Shown piece by piece: positions 2,981-34,920 of a stretch of DNA of 34,920 bases. Location of the stretch: positions 1 to 34,920 of the IMG/VR virus record IMGVR_UViG_3300032282_003330. One strand, 5' to 3'. How positions within the stretch are numbered: position 1 is the first letter of the stretch; each line of letters begins with the position of its first letter. The notes beneath the pieces were generated by a model. It did not search any database. It was not told the DNA's origin and worked only from the letters and a program-made list of their open reading frames with translations. The position numbers and the translations under genes are program-made. The stretch is from a virus.

Positions 2981-4075
2981 ATGGCTGTTAAACCAGTAAA
3001 AGTATTAACTGATCTGCAAACAAATAAGCAGATTACTAAAGTAGATAGAGCAGCAGGCAACGCAGTATTATTCAATGTTTCAGGTACAGTTGCTGGTGGT
3101 GGTCATGTAAGTTCTTCTCTTCCTTATACTGGTTCTGGCCTCTATATTGATGGTGACGCATTAATTAACGGTACATTAACTGTTAAAACCTATCATTCTA
3201 TAGATGTTACTGCATCAGTTTTATATGAAAGCGGTTCTTCAAAGTTTGGTAATAGCGCAGACGATACTCACCAATTTACTGGTAGCGTATCAATTAGTGG
3301 TTCATTTGTTGCTGATTATCTAACCGCATCATATGGACTTTACTCAGGGGGTCCATCTAATTTATCAGGCGCTGTCACAGCAAGAAATGGTTTAACAGTT
3401 CTTGGTGCTCCCTTAAATGCAATTACCGTTCCAGTAAGTGCAAGCAGTTTATTTGTAACAGATGGAGGCACTTTTGGCGGCAAAGTAACAGCAGCAGGTC
3501 TTACTTCTTCTGCTGGCTTATCTGTTGTTGGTCAAGCAAATGTTATCGGCACTATTAGTGCTACAACTTCTGCTTATGCTCCATTAGTAGCTGGTATTAA
3601 TGGAAGATTTGCAACAAGTTCTGTAGCGGCTCAAACGCCATTTAATAATCTTTCCGTAATAACAAGCTCACAAACAATTAATGGCGTTCCTTATGATTTG
3701 TATAGTATTGATCAAGCATTCCACGCAATTGATTCCGCTATCGCAGATTCCAGTAAGACACAAAATGCATACAAGCGTTTACGTTATCAAACAAGCGGCA
3801 CTTTTGACGTTAGTGGTATTCAATTAGTTGCTCTACCATTAACACAATTTAGCGGTTCCGCTTTCTCAACTTCATCATTAGATTTTATTACCGTTGATGT
3901 AATGATTAAATTAGAAAGTGGTGATAACTGGATGAATGACGTTGTAGCTGTAGAAACATATATTACTGGCTCTCCCGGTAGTGAATATGTTGAAGTAGCA
4001 ATTCACAGCGCCGATATTCCATATGCATACCGTTTAATCGCACTAAATGAAGATCCAACTAAATATGTGATATAA
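2981..4075 (+). CDS. Tail fibre-like structural protein (paralogue 2)
   Basis: 364 residues. Shares the MAVKP.K...DL...KQI.KVD N-terminal segment with the 1824 product and carries one C-terminal copy of the shared module (YKRLRYQTSGTFDVSG ... WMNDVVAVETYITGS ... SADIPYAYRLIALNEDP). The middle has a segment (KFGNSADDTHQFTGSVSISG) that I recall as common in structural proteins of T4-like environmental phages; it is followed by Ala/Gly/Ser/Thr-rich beta-type sequence. Strong AAAGGAG ribosome binding site. Probably a virion-exposed fibre; function by composition and context. Confidence 0.65.
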   Translation: MAVKPVKVLTDLQTNKQITKVDRAAGNAVLFNVSGTVAGGGHVSSSLPYTGSGLYIDGDALINGTLTVKTYHSIDVTASVLYESGSSKFGNSADDTHQFTGSVSISGSFVADYLTASYGLYSGGPSNLSGAVTARNGLTVLGAPLNAITVPVSASSLFVTDGGTFGGKVTAAGLTSSAGLSVVGQANVIGTISATTSAYAPLVAGINGRFATSSVAAQTPFNNLSVITSSQTINGVPYDLYSIDQAFHAIDSAIADSSKTQNAYKRLRYQTSGTFDVSGIQLVALPLTQFSGSAFSTSSLDFITVDVMIKLESGDNWMNDVVAVETYITGSPGSEYVEVAIHSADIPYAYRLIALNEDPTKYVI

Positions 4076-5830: not shown

Positions 5831-6020
5831 TGACAAAAAGCACAATCCAAAAACAATAATGGCATTATTAAAATTAATGCTAGCAATGCGTAACGATTTG
5901 TCAAAAGAAGAAAAAGAAAGTGTTATAAAATTAGCAGAACAAATGATTTCAAAAGGCAAAAAAAAAGACCATGAAGATAAACAAATCTTTCCTATCCAAG
6001 ATTATAAAAGAAGAAATTAA
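5823..6020 (+). CDS. Small charged protein, unknown function
   Basis: 65 residues, Lys/Glu rich and probably helical (for example NDLSKEEKESVIKLAEQM). It overlaps the upstream signal-peptide gene by 8 nt and the downstream gene at 5971 by 50 nt in another frame, so its last 16 codons also encode the N-terminal leader of the next protein. No signal peptide, Cys or known motif. Confidence 0.5.
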   Translation: MSNDKKHNPKTIMALLKLMLAMRNDLSKEEKESVIKLAEQMISKGKKKDHEDKQIFPIQDYKRRN

Positions 6021-7086: not shown

Positions 7087-10000
7087 ATGAAATTTGCACA
7101 TCTGTCAGACACCCACATTAAGCTACTAAAAGAGCACGATAGTTATAGAATTGTTTTTGATGAAATTTATAAAATTTTAAAAGAAGAAAAAGTTGATGCC
7201 GTTATTCATACAGGCGACCTTTTTCATACAAAAATTCAATTAACTCCAGAAGCAATTTCAATGGCTACAGATTTTTTGCGTTCATTGGCAGAAATTGCAC
7301 CATTGTATATTATTCCCGGCAACCACGACACCAACTTAAAAAATAATTCAAGAATGGATTCTATTACTCCAATTATTCAAGCAATAAATCACAATAATAT
7401 CTTCTATCTAAAAGATAGCGGAGAAATGGCTATTAGTGACGATTTTACGCTAAATGCTTTTAGCTTGCTTGACCAACAAAATTGGTCTAAACCATCTAAT
7501 CCAGAAAAAATCAATATCGCTCTTTTTCACGGTTCTGTTGCAGGAGTAAAAACGGATATTGGCTACGTCATGGAACACGGTGAATTTGACGTAAATATAT
7601 TTGACGGTCATGATTATGCATTTTGTGGCGACATACATATGTCTAATCAAATCCTTGATACAGAAGGAAAAGTTAGATATTGCGGCTCTACCGTTCAGCA
7701 AAACTTTGGCGAAACAGACGATAAGGGTTTCCTAATTTGGGATATCCAAAGCAAGGAAAGCTTCAGCTGCAAGCACTATGCCATTCCAAATCCTCGTCCA
7801 TTTGTCACTTTGACATTGGATGAAAACGGCGTATTGCCCGAGATTGACGTTAAGAAAGGTGCAAGAGTTCGCATCGTTGCTGACAAGAACGTAACGCTAG
7901 AAAAGGTTAAAAAGGCCACAGAGGTCGTTAAAAGCCGTTTCCAGCCTGAGAGTGTAACCTTCGTTAACAAAGCGGTTATCTCAAAGGCATCACAAGATGA
8001 AATTAATAGTATTGGTCATGCAGATAATTTGCGTGACCTTGGTGTACAAGAACGTCTTATCCGCGATTATCTAAAAGATTTCAAGGCAGAAGAAGAGGTA
8101 GTAAACAAAGTTGTTGACCTAAACAAGAAGCTTTCTTCTGCTATTGAAGAAGGTGAAGAAATTAATCGTAATGTTCGCTGGTCCCTTAAAGAATTAGAGT
8201 GGGATAACCTATTTAATTATGGCGAGGGCAATCGTGTCAATTTCGGAGACCTATCAGGAATCGTTGGTATTTTCGGCAAGAATTATTCTGGCAAATCTTC
8301 TATTGTTGACAGCATGCTTTATACTTTGTTTAATACCACTGCCAAAAACAACAGAAAAAACCTAAACGTCATCAACCAAAACAGAGAAAAAGGTCGTGGC
8401 AAAGTCAAGATTGAAATTGACGATGGTGAATACGTCGTTGAACGCAAGTCTGAAAAGTATATTAAGAAACTAAAGGGCGTCGAAACAATCGAAGCTAAGA
8501 CGGATGTAGAATTTACTTCATCTAATGAATCGTTGAATGGTCTTGCTCGTAATGATACGGACAAGAATATTCGTCGTTTCCTTGGAACGGTTGATGACTT
8601 TTTCTTGACAAGTATGGCTAGTCAGTTTGGTTATCTTTCATTTATTTCTGAAGGCTCAACCAAGCGTAAAGAAATTCTTGCGAAGTTCCTTGATTTGGAA
8701 AACTTTGACAAGAAGTTCAAGCTTGCAAAAGATGAAAGCGCAGAATTAAAGGGCTTGCTCAAAAAGCTTGAAGGCGTAGATTACAAGCGTGATATTGCTA
8801 ACGCTGAAACACAATTATCTGTTCTTGATAGCACGTTAGCTGAACAAAAGAGCCTTGTAGAACAACTACGTGGAAAAGTTATGGATGCAAATGAAACACT
8901 TTGTCAGTTACAAAAGAGTATTGCTAACGTTCCAAACCTTGTTCTTAATTGGGACGATATCAACAGTCAATTAAATTCATATCGTGCGGATAGAAAGAGA
9001 ATCGGTGAAGAAAATGTTTCTCTAGAAAGCGAAATTGCAAAGCTAGAAACTCTTTCACTAAAGATTGATGAATTCCTTTCTAATCTTGATGAAAAGGAAT
9101 TGATGTTAAAAGACCAACAGCTTAAGTTTATTAACGATCAAGTAAGAATTTTGGAACGAGATTATGGTCTTGCTACAAATGAAATTGCTGCGTCTGATAA
9201 AAAGATTAAGCTACTTGACCAAGTTCCATGCGGCGATAAATTCCCAACATGTAAATTCATCAAAGATGCGTTTGCTGCAAAAGAATCCTATGATGATTTG
9301 GTAAAAAACCAATCATTGATGAGTGGTACTTTGCGTGAAACAAAAGAAAAGTTTAATGTTCTTGATGCCGAAGTATCTGATGGTTTGAAAAAGCTTTCTG
9401 ATATCAAGAAGAAGCGTCTAGAAACAACCACAAAACTATCTTCTTGTCAGCTAAAATTAGAAAAGAACAAGAATACAGTTATCAATCTTGATAAAAAGAT
9501 TGAAGAGGCAGAAGAAAAGCTAAAACTTTACAACGATAATCGTGAAGCTATTGAGAATTATGAAAAGCTTTTAGCTGATCGTGAAGATGCAAAGCGTAAT
9601 GTTGCATTTTATACAAAAAAACTAACAGACGTAGAACATGAAATTGTAGAACTCTACAAAAATCACGGTTCTGTTTCTGCTAAAATCGATATATTCCGTA
9701 AGCAAGAAGCTGAATTACAAGATTTGCGGAAACAATATAGCGCATATGATTTGTTTTTAACATGTATGCATCCTAGTGGTATATCTTATGAGATCATCAA
9801 GAGCAAACTTCCTGAGATTAATCAGGAAATTGCTAAGATATTGGCAAATGTTGTTGAGTTTTCTATTTATCTTGAGAACGATGATGATAAATTAGATATT
9901 ATGATTAAACATCCTAAATATGATGCACGTCCACTTGAAATGGGAAGCGGCGCAGAAAAGACCTTAGCTTCTACAGCTATTCGTCTTGCCTTATTAAATG

Positions 10001-10215
10001 TTACTACGCTTCCAAAAGGTGATATTTTTATCATGGATGAGCCGGGAACTGCACTAGACGCAGAAAATCTAGACGGCTTTGTAAGAATTTTAGAACTAAT
10101 TAAGGGATATTTCAAAACTGTAATCTTGATTTCACATCTAGATAGCTTAAAAGACTGTGTAGATATGCAAATCGTTATCGATAGAAAAGAAGGTTTTGCA
10201 TACGTCAATCAATAG
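7087..10215 (+). CDS. Single-chain Mre11-Rad50 (gp47-gp46) recombination nuclease/ATPase
   Basis: 1042 residues joining two proteins that T4 encodes separately (gp47 and gp46). Residues 1 to about 260 are an Mre11/SbcD phosphoesterase: D8-T-H10, G43-D44, G78-N-H80-D81, H148 and G181-D-x-H184 are the metal-binding motifs. Residues from about 370 are Rad50/SbcC: Walker A near 397 (GKNYSGKSS), long coiled coils, a hook-like C715-x6-C722, a signature GSGAEKT near 952, Walker B FIMDE with D984/E985, and an H-loop (LISHLD). The complex resects DNA ends for recombination-dependent replication. It has a GGAGGA ribosome binding site and its own start after a terminator. Odd features: the fusion itself and a hook spacing wider than the usual C-x2-C. 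Confidence 0.93.
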   Translation: MKFAHLSDTHIKLLKEHDSYRIVFDEIYKILKEEKVDAVIHTGDLFHTKIQLTPEAISMATDFLRSLAEIAPLYIIPGNHDTNLKNNSRMDSITPIIQAINHNNIFYLKDSGEMAISDDFTLNAFSLLDQQNWSKPSNPEKINIALFHGSVAGVKTDIGYVMEHGEFDVNIFDGHDYAFCGDIHMSNQILDTEGKVRYCGSTVQQNFGETDDKGFLIWDIQSKESFSCKHYAIPNPRPFVTLTLDENGVLPEIDVKKGARVRIVADKNVTLEKVKKATEVVKSRFQPESVTFVNKAVISKASQDEINSIGHADNLRDLGVQERLIRDYLKDFKAEEEVVNKVVDLNKKLSSAIEEGEEINRNVRWSLKELEWDNLFNYGEGNRVNFGDLSGIVGIFGKNYSGKSSIVDSMLYTLFNTTAKNNRKNLNVINQNREKGRGKVKIEIDDGEYVVERKSEKYIKKLKGVETIEAKTDVEFTSSNESLNGLARNDTDKNIRRFLGTVDDFFLTSMASQFGYLSFISEGSTKRKEILAKFLDLENFDKKFKLAKDESAELKGLLKKLEGVDYKRDIANAETQLSVLDSTLAEQKSLVEQLRGKVMDANETLCQLQKSIANVPNLVLNWDDINSQLNSYRADRKRIGEENVSLESEIAKLETLSLKIDEFLSNLDEKELMLKDQQLKFINDQVRILERDYGLATNEIAASDKKIKLLDQVPCGDKFPTCKFIKDAFAAKESYDDLVKNQSLMSGTLRETKEKFNVLDAEVSDGLKKLSDIKKKRLETTTKLSSCQLKLEKNKNTVINLDKKIEEAEEKLKLYNDNREAIENYEKLLADREDAKRNVAFYTKKLTDVEHEIVELYKNHGSVSAKIDIFRKQEAELQDLRKQYSAYDLFLTCMHPSGISYEIIKSKLPEINQEIAKILANVVEFSIYLENDDDKLDIMIKHPKYDARPLEMGSGAEKTLASTAIRLALLNVTTLPKGDIFIMDEPGTALDAENLDGFVRILELIKGYFKTVILISHLDSLKDCVDMQIVIDRKEGFAYVNQ

Positions 10216-29779: not shown

Positions 29780-30319
29780 ATGGCATTTTGGAGCAATATG
29801 GATGTTGAACCAAAGAGACAACATAGATGGTATGTAACATTTGATAGCAATAACAATATCTTGAATCAAATAAGATATGCCGTTAAAAAGGTTTCTAAAC
29901 CATCGGCAAAAATCGGTTCAGTACAACATAAATACTTAAATCACTTTTTTAATTTTCCCGGTCGTTTAGAGTGGCAAGATGTTACCATTTCTTTTGCTTC
30001 TATATCTCAGCCAGACGCTACACAGTTATTAGATATCATTACTTCCCGCGCTGGCTATAAAGTACCAACCACACCTGATGAATATGAAACAATAGGAAAA
30101 ACAAAGTTTAATGCTTCTATTGGTTCTGTTACTATTACTCAAGTAAATCCAAATGGTGATAATATTGAAGAATGGAAATTATTTAAACCGTTTTTCACAG
30201 ATATTAAATATGGCGACTTAGATTATTCAAATGAAGAAATTGTTGAAATTCAATGCACTATTAAATATGATTGGGCATCATTAAACGGCAATCGTTCTGG
30301 CGGCGCACCAACACCTTAA
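29780..30319 (+). CDS. gp19: Tail tube protein (gp19-like)
   Basis: 179 residues, near the size of T4 gp19 (163). MAFWSNMDVEPKRQHRWYVT opens it; then KKVSKPSAKIGSVQHKYLNH, FNFPGRLEWQDVTISFASIS and FTDIKYGDLDYSNEEIVEIQ, the usual contractile-tail tube pattern of a beta barrel that stacks in hexameric rings. It forms the inner conduit for DNA. It is followed after 15 nt by a second tube-domain gene. AGGAG ribosome binding site and own candidate promoter suggest high expression. Confidence 0.92.
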   Translation: MAFWSNMDVEPKRQHRWYVTFDSNNNILNQIRYAVKKVSKPSAKIGSVQHKYLNHFFNFPGRLEWQDVTISFASISQPDATQLLDIITSRAGYKVPTTPDEYETIGKTKFNASIGSVTITQVNPNGDNIEEWKLFKPFFTDIKYGDLDYSNEEIVEIQCTIKYDWASLNGNRSGGAPTP

Positions 30320-30334
30320 TATTGATGAGGACAA

Positions 30335-32797
30335 ATGGCTTTTTGGAATGATCAAAATACTCCTGAACCATTACGTTCACACCGTTGGTATGTAGAATTT
30401 ACTGGTGAATTAAAAAATATTAAATTTGCTTTAAAAGAGTGTAAAAAACCAGAATATGAAGTAAATATTACAGAACACAAACTTTTAAATCATTACATAC
30501 GTTTACCCGGAATATTAAAATGGAAGCCAATTACAATTAAATTTGCTTCCATTCGTGATAATTCTAACTATAATAAAAACGCGAGTTCTTTGATTTATGC
30601 TGCTACTAAAAAAGGCGGTTATTCTAATCCCGGCTCTTTTTTATATGGCGCTTTGTCAAAATATTCAATGCACGACGCCCTTGAAAAAGGAACGCTGAAT
30701 ATTTTACAAGTAGACGCAGAAGGTAAATCTATAGAAATTTGGTCTTTATATAATGCTATCATTACATCAGTTAATTTTGGATCTTTAAATTATGAAAATG
30801 AAGATATAGTAAACATAGAATGTACTATAAATTATGATCATGCCGATTTAAATGCTACAAGTAAGTTATCAAAATCTGGTCTTAATACAGATAATTCAAG
30901 CGGTACCTCTAACGAAATTGATATGGGTAACGTAAAAGCAAAGGTAGTTTACGGCGCGGGCGGCAAAGATACAACACAAGGCGGTGATTTAAAACCATTA
31001 AAGTTTTATTATCCAAAAGATCCAAATTGGTATGTTAATAAAAAAAATCCAGTAGTTGTTACGTCACCAGTTATACCAGATAAAGAATATGACAGAATTC
31101 CACCTGATAGATTTGATAAAGCAATAAAATTAGTTACTGCTAAAGATGCTAATGATTTAAATAGATTAATTAAAATTTCTAGAGCAGATAATAGAGCATC
31201 GTCAAGAAACTTATCTGGCGAATATAACGAATTTTCAGATAAAACGGATGGCGATGCTGGAATGGTATTTTCGGATACTATAACTGATACTAAAGGTAAT
31301 CCCATCTCTACAGAAAAACAAATAAGAGATGAACAGTTTACTAAAGAAAGATTAGAACGAGAAGCAGCTATTAGCGCCGCCGAAGAAGAAAGAAGAAAAG
31401 AACAAGAAGCGGCCATTCTTGCTGAAGCAGAAAAAAGAGAAAAAGAAGCTAAATGGAAAGAATTAACAGCTCAACAAGATGCTAAAGATGCAGCTTCTAA
31501 TAAAGATAATCTTGCCTCTAATATTTTACAGGCAAGAAATGCTGAAGATCAAAGAGCAGATAGAGTAGAGTATAATTTAACATCTGATTTGCAAGCGGAA
31601 CAAACTACCTCTGCTGGCTCTGATTTTGATGTTGATGAAATGATGTCATCCGAAGCAGAGGCACAAAGAAAAGATTTAGAAGCTGCGGATGCTGCCAAAA
31701 AAGCAGCTGAACAAGAACGACAAGCAAAATATGAAGAATCGATGAGTAAGTTAGGTACTCTATTTGGACTTGCAGAGCAATCCGAAAATGATAAAACCGA
31801 ACAAGAAGAAACTAGAAAAGAAATGCAAGATGAATCTGCTAGATTATACGCCGAAGAAGAAATTGCGAATGACGACTTAGGAACAATAAAAGCAAATGAG
31901 ACTTTATCCTCTATGCAACAAATTCCAGCAGAAGAAGAAAGTTCTTTTTCTGGTGAAACTGCTACAGAAGATAATGAAACTCCTGTTCCCGAAACAGAAA
32001 GTGATTACAGTGATACAATTTCTGGCAATAATTCTAGTGAACAAGCAGTAGAAAATCAATCTATCGCTGAAGAATCTGGTTATGACTTATACGCTGGTAC
32101 TTCTTTAACAAGAGAAGATTATGTTTCTATGACTCAAGAAGATGTTGAGACAACGCAACAACCTAAAGATGAAGTAGAATATGGTCCCGCTACTCCTAAC
32201 GAAGAAGAATGGGAGCAAATGCGCGCCGATGAGAAAAAAAGTAATACCCCTAATCTTCTTGGTGATATAGATACTGGAATTAATGCGACTGATGCGTTTA
32301 AAGACGTAGTAGTAGCTCCTAACGAAGATATAACCGATACTGGTCCAAAAGGCAAAGAAGCCGAATCGGTATCTATTGGTAAAATAAAATCATCCAGTGC
32401 CACAGATGTTTATGCAGATGATTTTATAGGGTCTTCTGCTCCTAAAACAGTAAATTTTGATGATGCTTCTAGCGCTCAAAGCCAACAAAAAAAGCCATCT
32501 AATACTTATGAACAAACCTTTGAATCAGAATATTTCTTTGATACACGTTCTTCCAATTCAGCAGGCTATAACAGCTGGCTTTCCGACAGAGAAAAATCTA
32601 CCGCAGAAGATTTAGAAGCGTATTTAAAAGGACAAAAAGATTTACAAAATAAATTATTAAAAGAAAAATATTCTGAAATGTCTAAAGCAGGAAGAAATGG
32701 AGAAGCGGTTGACGAAAAATATAAATATCCATTAAAAACCATAAAAGAAGAAATTAAAACAGTTGAGAATTTATTAGAAAAAAAGAAAGAAGATTAA
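30335..32797 (+). CDS. Tube-domain paralogue with very long acidic coiled-coil/disordered tail
   Basis: 820 residues. About residues 1-180 are a second tube fold paralogous to gp19 (MAFWNDQNTPEPLRSHRWYV, LNHYIRLPGILKWKPITIKF, SVNFGSLNYENEDIVNIECT). The remaining 640 or so residues are hydrophilic: a linker, a Glu/Arg/Ala coiled coil (about 328-390, ERLEREAAISAAEEERRKEQ), a second helix (about 450-475), a long acidic Glu/Asp/Ser/Thr-rich region (about 480-720) and a helical C-terminus (about 750-820, ending EKKKED). Like T4 gp54 and gp48 it could be a tube initiator or terminator, but such a tail is not in those proteins. The tail might act as a chaperone-like or tape-measure-associated element. 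Role unproven. Confidence 0.75.
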   Translation: MAFWNDQNTPEPLRSHRWYVEFTGELKNIKFALKECKKPEYEVNITEHKLLNHYIRLPGILKWKPITIKFASIRDNSNYNKNASSLIYAATKKGGYSNPGSFLYGALSKYSMHDALEKGTLNILQVDAEGKSIEIWSLYNAIITSVNFGSLNYENEDIVNIECTINYDHADLNATSKLSKSGLNTDNSSGTSNEIDMGNVKAKVVYGAGGKDTTQGGDLKPLKFYYPKDPNWYVNKKNPVVVTSPVIPDKEYDRIPPDRFDKAIKLVTAKDANDLNRLIKISRADNRASSRNLSGEYNEFSDKTDGDAGMVFSDTITDTKGNPISTEKQIRDEQFTKERLEREAAISAAEEERRKEQEAAILAEAEKREKEAKWKELTAQQDAKDAASNKDNLASNILQARNAEDQRADRVEYNLTSDLQAEQTTSAGSDFDVDEMMSSEAEAQRKDLEAADAAKKAAEQERQAKYEESMSKLGTLFGLAEQSENDKTEQEETRKEMQDESARLYAEEEIANDDLGTIKANETLSSMQQIPAEEESSFSGETATEDNETPVPETESDYSDTISGNNSSEQAVENQSIAEESGYDLYAGTSLTREDYVSMTQEDVETTQQPKDEVEYGPATPNEEEWEQMRADEKKSNTPNLLGDIDTGINATDAFKDVVVAPNEDITDTGPKGKEAESVSIGKIKSSSATDVYADDFIGSSAPKTVNFDDASSAQSQQKKPSNTYEQTFESEYFFDTRSSNSAGYNSWLSDREKSTAEDLEAYLKGQKDLQNKLLKEKYSEMSKAGRNGEAVDEKYKYPLKTIKEEIKTVENLLEKKKED

Positions 32798-32865: not shown

Positions 32866-33747
32866 ATGCGTAACAATGAAGAACGTTTGGGTGCTCCAAT
32901 GCAACGTCAAGACGCTGTTCCTGCACCACAACAATTAGTACAGCAAATGCAACAAGTAGCACAATCACCAAATTTGAATACAGCACAGCTTAATTTCGTA
33001 ACTCCAACAGAATTTGTTACTTTACCATCAAAAGGTAAATTTTATCCTCAACACCACCCTTTATACGGTAAAGATGTTATTGAAATTAAACAGATGACTG
33101 CAAAAGAAGAAGATATTCTTACTTCACGAAGCCTATTAAAAAAGGGGGTGGCATTAGATAGGCTAATTCAATCTCTAGTAGTAGATAAAAATATAAATCC
33201 AGATACATTAACAATTGAAGATCGTAGTGCAATTATAATTGCTGCTCGTATATCTGCTTATGGTGCTGATTATGCGACTACCGTTACTTGTCCAGATTGC
33301 GGTGAAAAACATAAAGCAAGTTTTAACTTATTAGAAAAGTTAGAGCCAACTGATGAACAAGAAGAATCATCAGAAGTATTATTAAATGATAATGGAACAT
33401 TTTCTTTAATATTGCCATCTACTAAATGGGTTGTTGTATGTAGAGTATTAAATGGTTATGACGAAAAGAATCTTTCTAAATCAGCCGATAAGAAAAAAGA
33501 AGGTGGCGATGCTTTATTATTAGAACAATTAAAAGCAACCGTTGTATCAGTTCAACAAGTTGAACAGCGTGATATGCTTGAAAAAGCATTAACTGTTCTT
33601 CCTGCTGCTGATTCTAGATTTTTACGTAAAGTTTATTCACAAGTAGTTAAGGGTGTTGATATGCGTCATACTTTTAACTGCAAGTCTTGCGATTTCTCAA
33701 CAGAAATGGAGGTGCCATTGACCGCAGACTTTTTTTGGTTTAAGTAA
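32866..33747 (+). CDS. gp26: gp26-like zinc protein, likely tail assembly chaperone/baseplate hub factor (short form)
   Basis: 293 residues. A Gln/Pro-rich N-terminus is followed by the T4 gp26-family core: TLPSKGKFYPQHHPLYGKDV, IKQMTAKEEDILTSRSLLKK, and a zinc-ribbon pair CPDC (about residue 144) and CKSC (about residue 274). In T4, gp26 is classed as a baseplate hub component. Its place here, between tube genes and the tape-measure gene, is that of tail assembly chaperones in other long-tailed phages. The last codons read through a T7 run, and an in-phase continuation exists only in another frame (see the extension feature). I infer a chaperone pair made by frameshifting. Confidence 0.85.
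   Translation: MRNNEERLGAPMQRQDAVPAPQQLVQQMQQVAQSPNLNTAQLNFVTPTEFVTLPSKGKFYPQHHPLYGKDVIEIKQMTAKEEDILTSRSLLKKGVALDRLIQSLVVDKNINPDTLTIEDRSAIIIAARISAYGADYATTVTCPDCGEKHKASFNLLEKLEPTDEQEESSEVLLNDNGTFSLILPSTKWVVVCRVLNGYDEKNLSKSADKKKEGGDALLLEQLKATVVSVQQVEQRDMLEKALTVLPAADSRFLRKVYSQVVKGVDMRHTFNCKSCDFSTEMEVPLTADFFWFK
33728..33739 (+). promoter_or_regulatory. Probable programmed frameshift site (T7 run)
   Basis: GAC-TTT-TTT-TGG near the end of the gp26-like gene, with GGAGG about 20 nt upstream that could pair with 16S rRNA and stimulate slippage. Shifting by +1 (or -2) on the T7 run at 33730-33736 leads into GGT-TTA-AGT, the frame of a conserved-looking 59-residue extension that has no start codon of its own. 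Confidence 0.6.
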
Positions 33748-33916
33748 CGAATACCAAGAAAATAGTTATGAAACATTCTTTTATCTTAAATATTATGGCG
33801 GATTTTCAATCTTTGAAAGTTACAATTTGCCAATAGCTTTAAGACAATGGTTTGTTAAAAAATTGATAGATCAATTAAAAGCGGAAAGTGACGCTGTAAA
33901 ACGTGCAGGTAAGTAA
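33737..33916 (+). CDS. Frameshift extension of the gp26-like protein (long form C-terminus)
   Basis: Open frame of 59 codons from GGT at 33737 to TAA at 33916, in +1 phase to the gp26-like gene. Upstream in this frame a TGA lies 18 nt before 33737, and no ATG, GTG, TTG or ATT occurs until a TTG deep inside, so normal initiation is unlikely. The peptide is protein-like: YETFFYLKYYGGFSIFESYN, LPIALRQWFVKKLIDQLKAE. I recall a similar YGGFS.FE.Y.LPI.LR.WF pattern encoded downstream of gp26 in other T4-like phages. The product would be about 349 residues, parallel to G/GT chaperone pairs. A terminator follows. Confidence 0.65.
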   Translation, partial: GLSNEYQENSYETFFYLKYYGGFSIFESYNLPIALRQWFVKKLIDQLKAESDAVKRAGK

Positions 33917-33994: not shown

Positions 33995-34920
33995 ATGGCC
34001 AATGGACAAGGTGGAAATCAAGGTGGTTCTGGTGGAGGAAATATTCCTCCCGTTCCTAATCCAATGCCAAATCCTGCCGATATGCAAGCAGTTGTAGATA
34101 AATTAGAAGCTATTTTAAGATTAACAAATGATATTACGGTTCAATCCCAAAGAAATGTTAATTCTGCTGAAGCAGAATTACAGGCTTTAGAAAAAAGAAA
34201 AATTCTTTTAGAATCTCAACAACAAACAGCTGAAAGAGATTTAGAACTTTTACGTTTACAAAGACAGGAAAGAGAAACGCGATTAGAGCTTTTAAAAAAT
34301 GAATTAAATTTAGTAAATGATAATTTAGTAAAAGAAAGAGAAAAATTAGAAAAATTACAAATAGGTACACAAGCTTATACAGATCAAAAAAAAATAGTTG
34401 ATGATCTTACGGAAACTATGGAATTCGGTGTTTCTTTTATAAGAGAGGGACAAATAGAATTACAAAGATTTAATGAAGCTAATAAGTTAAGAAACGAATT
34501 AGCCGAACAAGCTGTAGCAATAGAGAGAAGATTTGGTAATTTAGTAGAAAACTCCTTTAATCAAACGATTAAACAAATTGGAGCAACTACTGGCTTAGGA
34601 GAAATTCTAACTGCTTTTATGTCTGGTCCTGCTGCTGGTTTTATGGCAATCGTTGAAAGAACCGTTGCTGAATCTATTAAATTAATAGACGTAGTGGCAA
34701 AAGGAAATCAGCAATTTGCTGCTACAACTGGTCAAATTGCTCAAAGAAGTTTAGGCTTTGGTTATGGAATGAGCCAATTTGGCGTCGGTTTTCAGCAAAT
34801 GAATGAAGCAATGATGGGTCTTTTTACCAGCATGTCAGGTTTTACAGATCAATCTCAAGAAGTACAAGAACAATTAGCTGGTGCAGCTGCAAAAATGAAA
34901 AATCTTGGAGTTGATATAGC
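33995..34920 (+). CDS. Tape-measure-like tail protein, 3' end outside the window
   Basis: 309 codons are visible and open to the window edge. MANGQGGNQGGSGGGNIPPV, a Gly/Pro-rich start, is followed by a long coiled coil (about residues 45-125, Glu/Gln/Arg/Leu heptads such as AERDLELLRLQRQERETRLE), a second helical region, then a hydrophobic Gly/Ala segment (about 205-235, GEILTAFMSGPAAGFMAIVE) and further helices. This order (coiled coil plus membrane-active segment) and its place after the chaperone-like frameshift gene fit a tape-measure protein that sets tail length. GAGG ribosome binding site 9 nt upstream. The T4 counterpart would be gp29; no sequence match to it is claimed. Confidence 0.75.
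   Translation, partial: MANGQGGNQGGSGGGNIPPVPNPMPNPADMQAVVDKLEAILRLTNDITVQSQRNVNSAEAELQALEKRKILLESQQQTAERDLELLRLQRQERETRLELLKNELNLVNDNLVKEREKLEKLQIGTQAYTDQKKIVDDLTETMEFGVSFIREGQIELQRFNEANKLRNELAEQAVAIERRFGNLVENSFNQTIKQIGATTGLGEILTAFMSGPAAGFMAIVERTVAESIKLIDVVAKGNQQFAATTGQIAQRSLGFGYGMSQFGVGFQQMNEAMMGLFTSMSGFTDQSQEVQEQLAGAAAKMKNLGVDI

Follow-up and report, generated by a model that had tools for sequence, protein, structure and literature searches.

A gp26-like gene of T4-related phages very probably yields two tail assembly chaperone forms through a +1 frameshift at UUU_U

Many tailed phages make a short and a long tail chaperone by -1, -2 or +1 ribosomal frameshifting, and T4 is the named exception in a 2016 review (PMC5009743). 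The question raised here is whether a gp26-like gene in a T4-related virus is nevertheless read into two forms. The gene lies in a 34.9-kb piece (positions 1 to 34,920, hereafter the window) of a virus record, with T4-type portal, terminase, capsid, prohead protease, sheath and tail tube genes. An earlier note made from the letters of this DNA proposed a "+1/-2" frameshift close to the end of the gene and placed the site between tail-tube and tape-measure genes, a placement borne out by the gene order:

29780-30319, + strand: tail tube gene 1 (phrog_4542 match)
30335-32797, + strand: tail tube gene 2 (phrog_4542 match; E values of the two tube genes, 6.5e-20 and 1.2e-20)
32866..33747, + strand: TAC-N, the predicted short form (293 aa) of a gp26-like tail assembly chaperone (PF12322, E 8.7e-16; AlphaFold2 model)
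33995..34920, + strand: probable tape measure protein gene, leaving the window (weak phrog_167 match, E 0.031)

The gene at 33995 sits where Flavobacterium phage immuto and Listeria phage LIS04 have their annotated tape measure genes, and annotated phages share the order of tail tube, gp26-like and tape measure genes. The two tail tube genes are paralogues, the second with about 640 additional residues, largely acidic and of low complexity.

Several other genes of the window merit record. In a single 1042-aa frame (7087-10215), an SbcD-like metallophosphoesterase (residues 1-184) is fused to an SbcC/SMC-like ATPase, a pair encoded in T4 by the separate genes 47 and 46. Genes starting at 5971, 6715, 17247 and 20644 encode unrelated small proteins with a common basic-amphipathic start (MKINKSFLSKIIKEEI, MKVTKQYLKKLIMEEL, MKLLKNYLRKLILEAI, MKKEELKQIIKPLIKECL), perhaps a capsid-targeting sequence like that of T4. 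The adjacent paralogues at 1824-2939 and 2981-4075, which also have the same start (MAVKPAKAIADLLARKQ, MAVKPVKVLTDLQTNKQ), are probably structural.

The gp26-like gene ends with the codons GTG CCA TTG ACC GCA GAC TTT TTT TGG TTT AAG TAA, placing GAC TTTTTTT GG at 33727-33738 and the stop at 33745-33747. The +1 frame opens past a TGA, closes at TAA 33914-33916, and from GGT at 33737 encodes 59 residues, namely GLSNEYQENSYETFFYLKYYGGFSIFESYNLPIALRQWFVKKLIDQLKAESDAVKRAGK. Because the TGA closes the extension frame upstream, a shift must fall 3' of it. The relevant features are these:

33708..33712, + strand: GGAGG, Shine-Dalgarno-like, 22 nt before the T run (conserved offset, codon constraint)
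33719..33721, + strand: TGA closing the extension frame upstream (sequence)
33727..33729, + strand: GAC codon adjoining the shift site, third base constrained (codon counts)
33730..33738, + strand: candidate shift site TTT TTT TGG, with the +1 slip at TTT 33733-33735 (UUU_U) and 0-frame UGG in the A site (codon conservation)
33737..33916, + strand: TAC-C, predicted 59-aa C-terminal domain in the +1 frame, including the stop (frame in relatives, pN/pS, model)
32866..33916, + strand: TAC-NC, predicted 349-aa fusion via +1 frameshift (translation with one base skipped; alignment of 24 fusions)

The run of seven Ts just before the gp26-like stop and the 59-codon open frame had been pointed out in the earlier note; their coordinates are confirmed, and the arrangement is far beyond chance. 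Its further claim, that the extension frame lacks a start after its own TGA, also stands: the first ATG, GTG or TTG is a TTG 30 codons past the shift, within the conserved domain. The 31-nt DNA pattern of the site occurred once in the window and in none of the shuffles; the T run by itself is not unusual in AT-rich DNA.

Relatives came from an IMG/VR search (80 at 46-70% identity) and a profile search (80 more loci, overlapping in part). All untruncated members of the first set had the same gp26 end and the same +1-frame extension, and the 24 aligned fusions were 43-67% identical to that of the window. The extension lay in the +1 frame in 158 of the 159 loci where it was recognisable, with the site TTYTTTTGG in 154 of the 158 and related sites in 4. 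We also scanned viral contigs with the DNA pattern, which covers the gp26 side only and does not require the extension, although some loci so recovered are contigs found earlier. This returned 80 loci, each where a long open frame ends; the extension was in the +1 frame in 78, the other two ran off the contig within 10 codons, and the -1 frame was shut immediately in most. Alignment of relatives across the junction, proposed in the earlier note as a check, showed that relatives keep the T run and, in the same frame, the extension. Two arrangements that the note had set against a frameshift were an extension in frame with gp26, found in none of the +1 group, and an extension with its own start, found only in one distant phage, LR756511. 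Related records of 187-196 kb each contained exactly one PF12322 gene and one extension, with no separate long-form gene found in them; therefore the long form apparently comes only from this gene.

Codon counts and pN/pS were taken from 106 non-redundant sequences. The shift codon was TTT in 104 and CTT in 2, and in none the synonymous TTC, a codon that makes up 22% of Phe codons elsewhere in the gp26-like gene. It was followed by TGG in all 106, and in all 106 the P-site codon could re-pair one base forward (TTT_T or CTT_T). The Phe codon preceding it was TTC in 9 of the 106. On the gp26 tree this preceding codon switched between TTT and TTC six or more times, and the shift codon never to TTC. 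The shift codon changed only twice, both times to CTT, altering the amino acid and keeping a CUU_U shift site. For the extension, the +1 frame had a pN/pS of 0.25 and the other two frames had 1.8 and 1.0; by this measure the extension is under purifying selection in the +1 frame only.

A -2 shift, of the kind used by phage Mu (PMC5009743), might give the same fusion; it would reach the same frame with one additional phenylalanine (ADFFFGLS, +147 Da), and in most sequences the seven Ts would let it re-pair perfectly. Nine of the non-redundant sequences, however, read TTC TTT TGG, and there a -2 shift would leave tRNA-Phe paired with UCU, a middle-base mismatch; +1 is favoured because re-pairing there stays perfect, and for distant +1-frame phages whose sites are TTTC or CTTT a +1 shift is likewise the simpler fit. 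We consider -2 improbable, so that of the "+1/-2" shift first claimed the +1 half is retained and the -2 half given up. A different source of the second frame would be RNA polymerase rather than the ribosome, slipping on the T run to give mRNAs in the other frame. Homopolymer runs do slip readily, and T7 is borderline, but relatives with TTCTTTTGG or TTTCTTTGG keep the frame with runs of only four or three Ts, and polymerase slippage would need neither the invariant TGG nor the constrained upstream codons that are seen; we rate it very improbable.

Those upstream codons may bear on how a +1 shift would be stimulated. Among 121 testable gp26 columns the strongest codon constraint fell on GAG, GAC and CCG, all lying 5' of the shift site among the final 12 codons, with GAG (part of GGAGG) the most constrained of all. 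The GAC adjoining the shift site accounted for 42 of 42 Asp codons and was present in 85 of the 106 non-redundant sequences (gene-wide GAC, 28%). GGAGG stood at -22 from the T run in 85 of the 106 and at -28 in 9, and was all but absent from the rest of the final 300 nt. Its gap of 20 nt to the shift codon (17 nt to the T run), or of 26 nt, matches neither known range for frameshift-stimulating Shine-Dalgarno elements, 3 nt for +1 and 9-14 nt for -1 (PMC5009743). Since genes of the window use Shine-Dalgarno starts (23 of 31 versus an 11% background), the host ribosome can probably see GGAGG. A search for conserved RNA structure on either side of the shift site found none. Tentatively, and as a possibility somewhat short of probable, the conserved block GGAGGTnCCG...GCnGAC at its fixed distance of 22 nt upstream of the T run, or GGAGG at a distance of 28 nt, might be a +1 frameshift stimulator of a new kind, working via rRNA at a spacing of 20-26 nt or via the E site, in a T4-related clade that uses +1 where its cousins use -1 at the same place.

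GGAGG could instead aid initiation at an unrecognised or non-AUG start, the extension then being a separate gene. It is a good Shine-Dalgarno match of the sort used by those 23 starts, and the extension in LR756511 has its own ATG. Nonetheless, in many sequences, including the window, a stop closes the extension frame 5 codons before the shift and no ATG, GTG or TTG follows until well inside or beyond the domain, and the codon that GGAGG would serve at initiation spacing belongs to the gp26 frame and is not conserved as a start; a separate gene seems hardly credible. Homopolymers are prone to error, but a sequencing or assembly indel, with gp26 and the extension truly one frame, is already refuted by the relatives and can be given next to no weight, as the frame relation is the same at 158 loci from many samples and in sequenced isolates such as Microcystis phage Mel-JY01 and Flavobacterium phage immuto, and TTC variants have no long run.

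The case for a programmed +1 frameshift is thus a comparative one, built on the frame of the extension, its missing start, the conserved site, selection and the single-copy genes, and the comparative support is very strong. The gene very probably yields two tail assembly chaperone forms, the long one by a +1 frameshift at UUU_U, a site that RF2 of some bacteria also uses for its +1 shift (PMC5009743). The shift itself, its rate and its role in assembly we infer as follows. Most ribosomes would terminate at 33745-33747 and release TAC-N. In a minority, with UUU 33733-33735 occupied by tRNA-Phe and the A site awaiting decoding of UGG, the only codon for Trp, the tRNA-Phe would move one base forward on UUU_U and re-pair with UUU, and GGU would be read next. 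These ribosomes would produce TAC-NC with its three-helix C-domain, reading ...ADFFGLS... across the junction (predicted junction peptide, VPLTADFFGLSNEYQENSYETFFYLK). By analogy with lambda G/GT, TAC-N would coat the product of the tape measure gene that comes next, tail tube subunits would be recruited by the C-domain of the minor form, TAC-NC, and neither form would stay in the virion.

Identification of the product as a chaperone draws on family membership and modelled structure. The PF12322 (T4_baseplate) match of the gp26-like protein scored 58.7 bits against a Pfam cut-off of 24.5. The short form and the extension were modelled separately, each as read from the DNA. The AlphaFold2 model of the former (pLDDT 86.7) gave no significant Foldseek match. 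VIA-align of this model gave three top matches of modest Z value, followed by a fourth row at Z 2.8: 3fgx (Z 6.0) over model residues 19-141, YqbN 3klu (Z 5.8) over 175-261, and 2ob9, the tail assembly chaperone of HK97 (Z 5.2), over 34-137. By their PDB titles 2ob9 is a chaperone and 3fgx is uncharacterised; YqbN we take to be a tail assembly chaperone. Because 3fgx and 2ob9 match residues of the N-terminal half and 3klu matches residues 175-261, each half of gp26 may resemble a chaperone domain.

The extension was modelled as three helices (pLDDT 93.6), and among its best viral matches was 'Gp51' of Prochlorococcus phage P-HM1 (probability 0.99, TM 0.71/0.78, E 0.26). T4 gp51 has PF12322 across residues 1-201 followed by a tail of about 48 aa, and so shares the architecture of the predicted fusion. 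No homology between the extension and the T4 gp51 tail was detected by hhalign, hmmsearch or a column-permutation profile test. PHROGs gave no match for the extension and Pfam nothing better than a weak DUF592 hit below threshold, and sequence searches found no solved structures related to the fusion. The modelling supports a chaperone-like fold for the gp26-like protein, chaperone function is well supported, and the product pair is most likely a short and a long tail assembly chaperone (TAC-N/TAC-NC, compare lambda G/GT). The chaperone class suggested in the earlier note also gains support from structure, but the link of gp26 to chaperones is not new, having been published in 2022.

The title of that 2022 work of Vladimirov, Gautam and Davidson reportedly argues for a non-frameshifting mechanism in T4-like chaperones. 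As cited in PMC10885494 and PMC12846349, the work identified T4-like chaperone genes; that these are gp26 and gp51 in T4 is our reading of what is cited, taken with the Pfam result. A passage of PMC10885494 describes separate short and long chaperone genes in some T4-like phages, and one of PMC12846349 poly-T -1 signals in T4-like TAC-N genes. The window gene belongs with T4 gp26 and gp51 in PF12322, but T4 has two genes on opposite strands where the window has one gene and a predicted frameshift; separate genes for the two forms are absent from the 187-196 kb relatives. Lambda G/GT is alike in plan, with one gene for a short and a long chaperone, a shift just before the stop, a small C-domain and a place between tail tube and tape measure genes (PMC5009743). 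Its shift, however, is -1 and that proposed here is +1 at UUU_UGG; the window gene, a PF12322 member with zinc-ribbon motifs, differs from G/GT, and no sequence relation is expected.

Further comparisons lie within the family. In cyanophages S-RS29 and Bellamy and in jumbo phages CBB, Callisto, SCTP-2, Vibrio 2.275 and Atu_ph07 the downstream domain is in the -1 frame at T_TTT_TTC (gp26 genes ending TTTTTTC at our loci L302, L303, L298-L301 and L087), and the small 'baseplate hub assembly' genes of S-RS29 and Bellamy are probably not independent genes. The gene, its place, the downstream domain and a T-rich shift site are the same as in the window, where by contrast the shift would be +1 at TTT TGG with GGAGG upstream. 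The downstream domain is in the +1 frame in Bacillus phage SP-15, Listeria LIS04 and Streptococcus GXN1. Because the PF12322 phages examined show -1, +1 or, in LR756511, an own ATG, members of a single family seem to differ in which way they shift at this one position. Outside the family, RF2 (prfB, CUU_UGA) resembles the proposed site in the +1 slip of one peptidyl-tRNA on a run ending in U and in a Shine-Dalgarno-like element upstream, and CTT_T, with CTT the RF2 shift codon, occurs in two relatives; yet RF2 has a stop in the A site and its Shine-Dalgarno 3 nt away (PMC5009743), versus UGG and GGAGG 20 nt away in the window. A +1 direction has likewise been inferred for a tail chaperone among the tail genes of the haloarchaeal myovirus HSTV-2 (PMC5009743), which differs in being an archaeal virus.

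What published work already covers, then, is T4-like gp26 and gp51 as chaperones, with -1 poly-T sites in some; new here is the +1 version with its conserved upstream GGAGG, the kind of shift itself being known in phages. For annotation, the long form is absent or misdrawn in sequenced phages and databases mostly miss the +1 form. The C-domain is drawn as a small, odd-looking gene whose start is unlikely in Mel-JY01 (L081, 3255-3491) and immuto (L083, 3333-3443) and is left without annotation in gaps past gp26 at loci L085 and L086. The 'baseplate hub' protein gp26 is probably better named a tail assembly chaperone. A large, mostly uncultivated T4-related group seems to frameshift forward at the gp26-like gene, T4 being the named exception to such shifting, and forward shifting in this group, apparently backward shifting in cyanophages and jumbo phages, and two genes in T4 would form a natural series for the evolution of shift direction.
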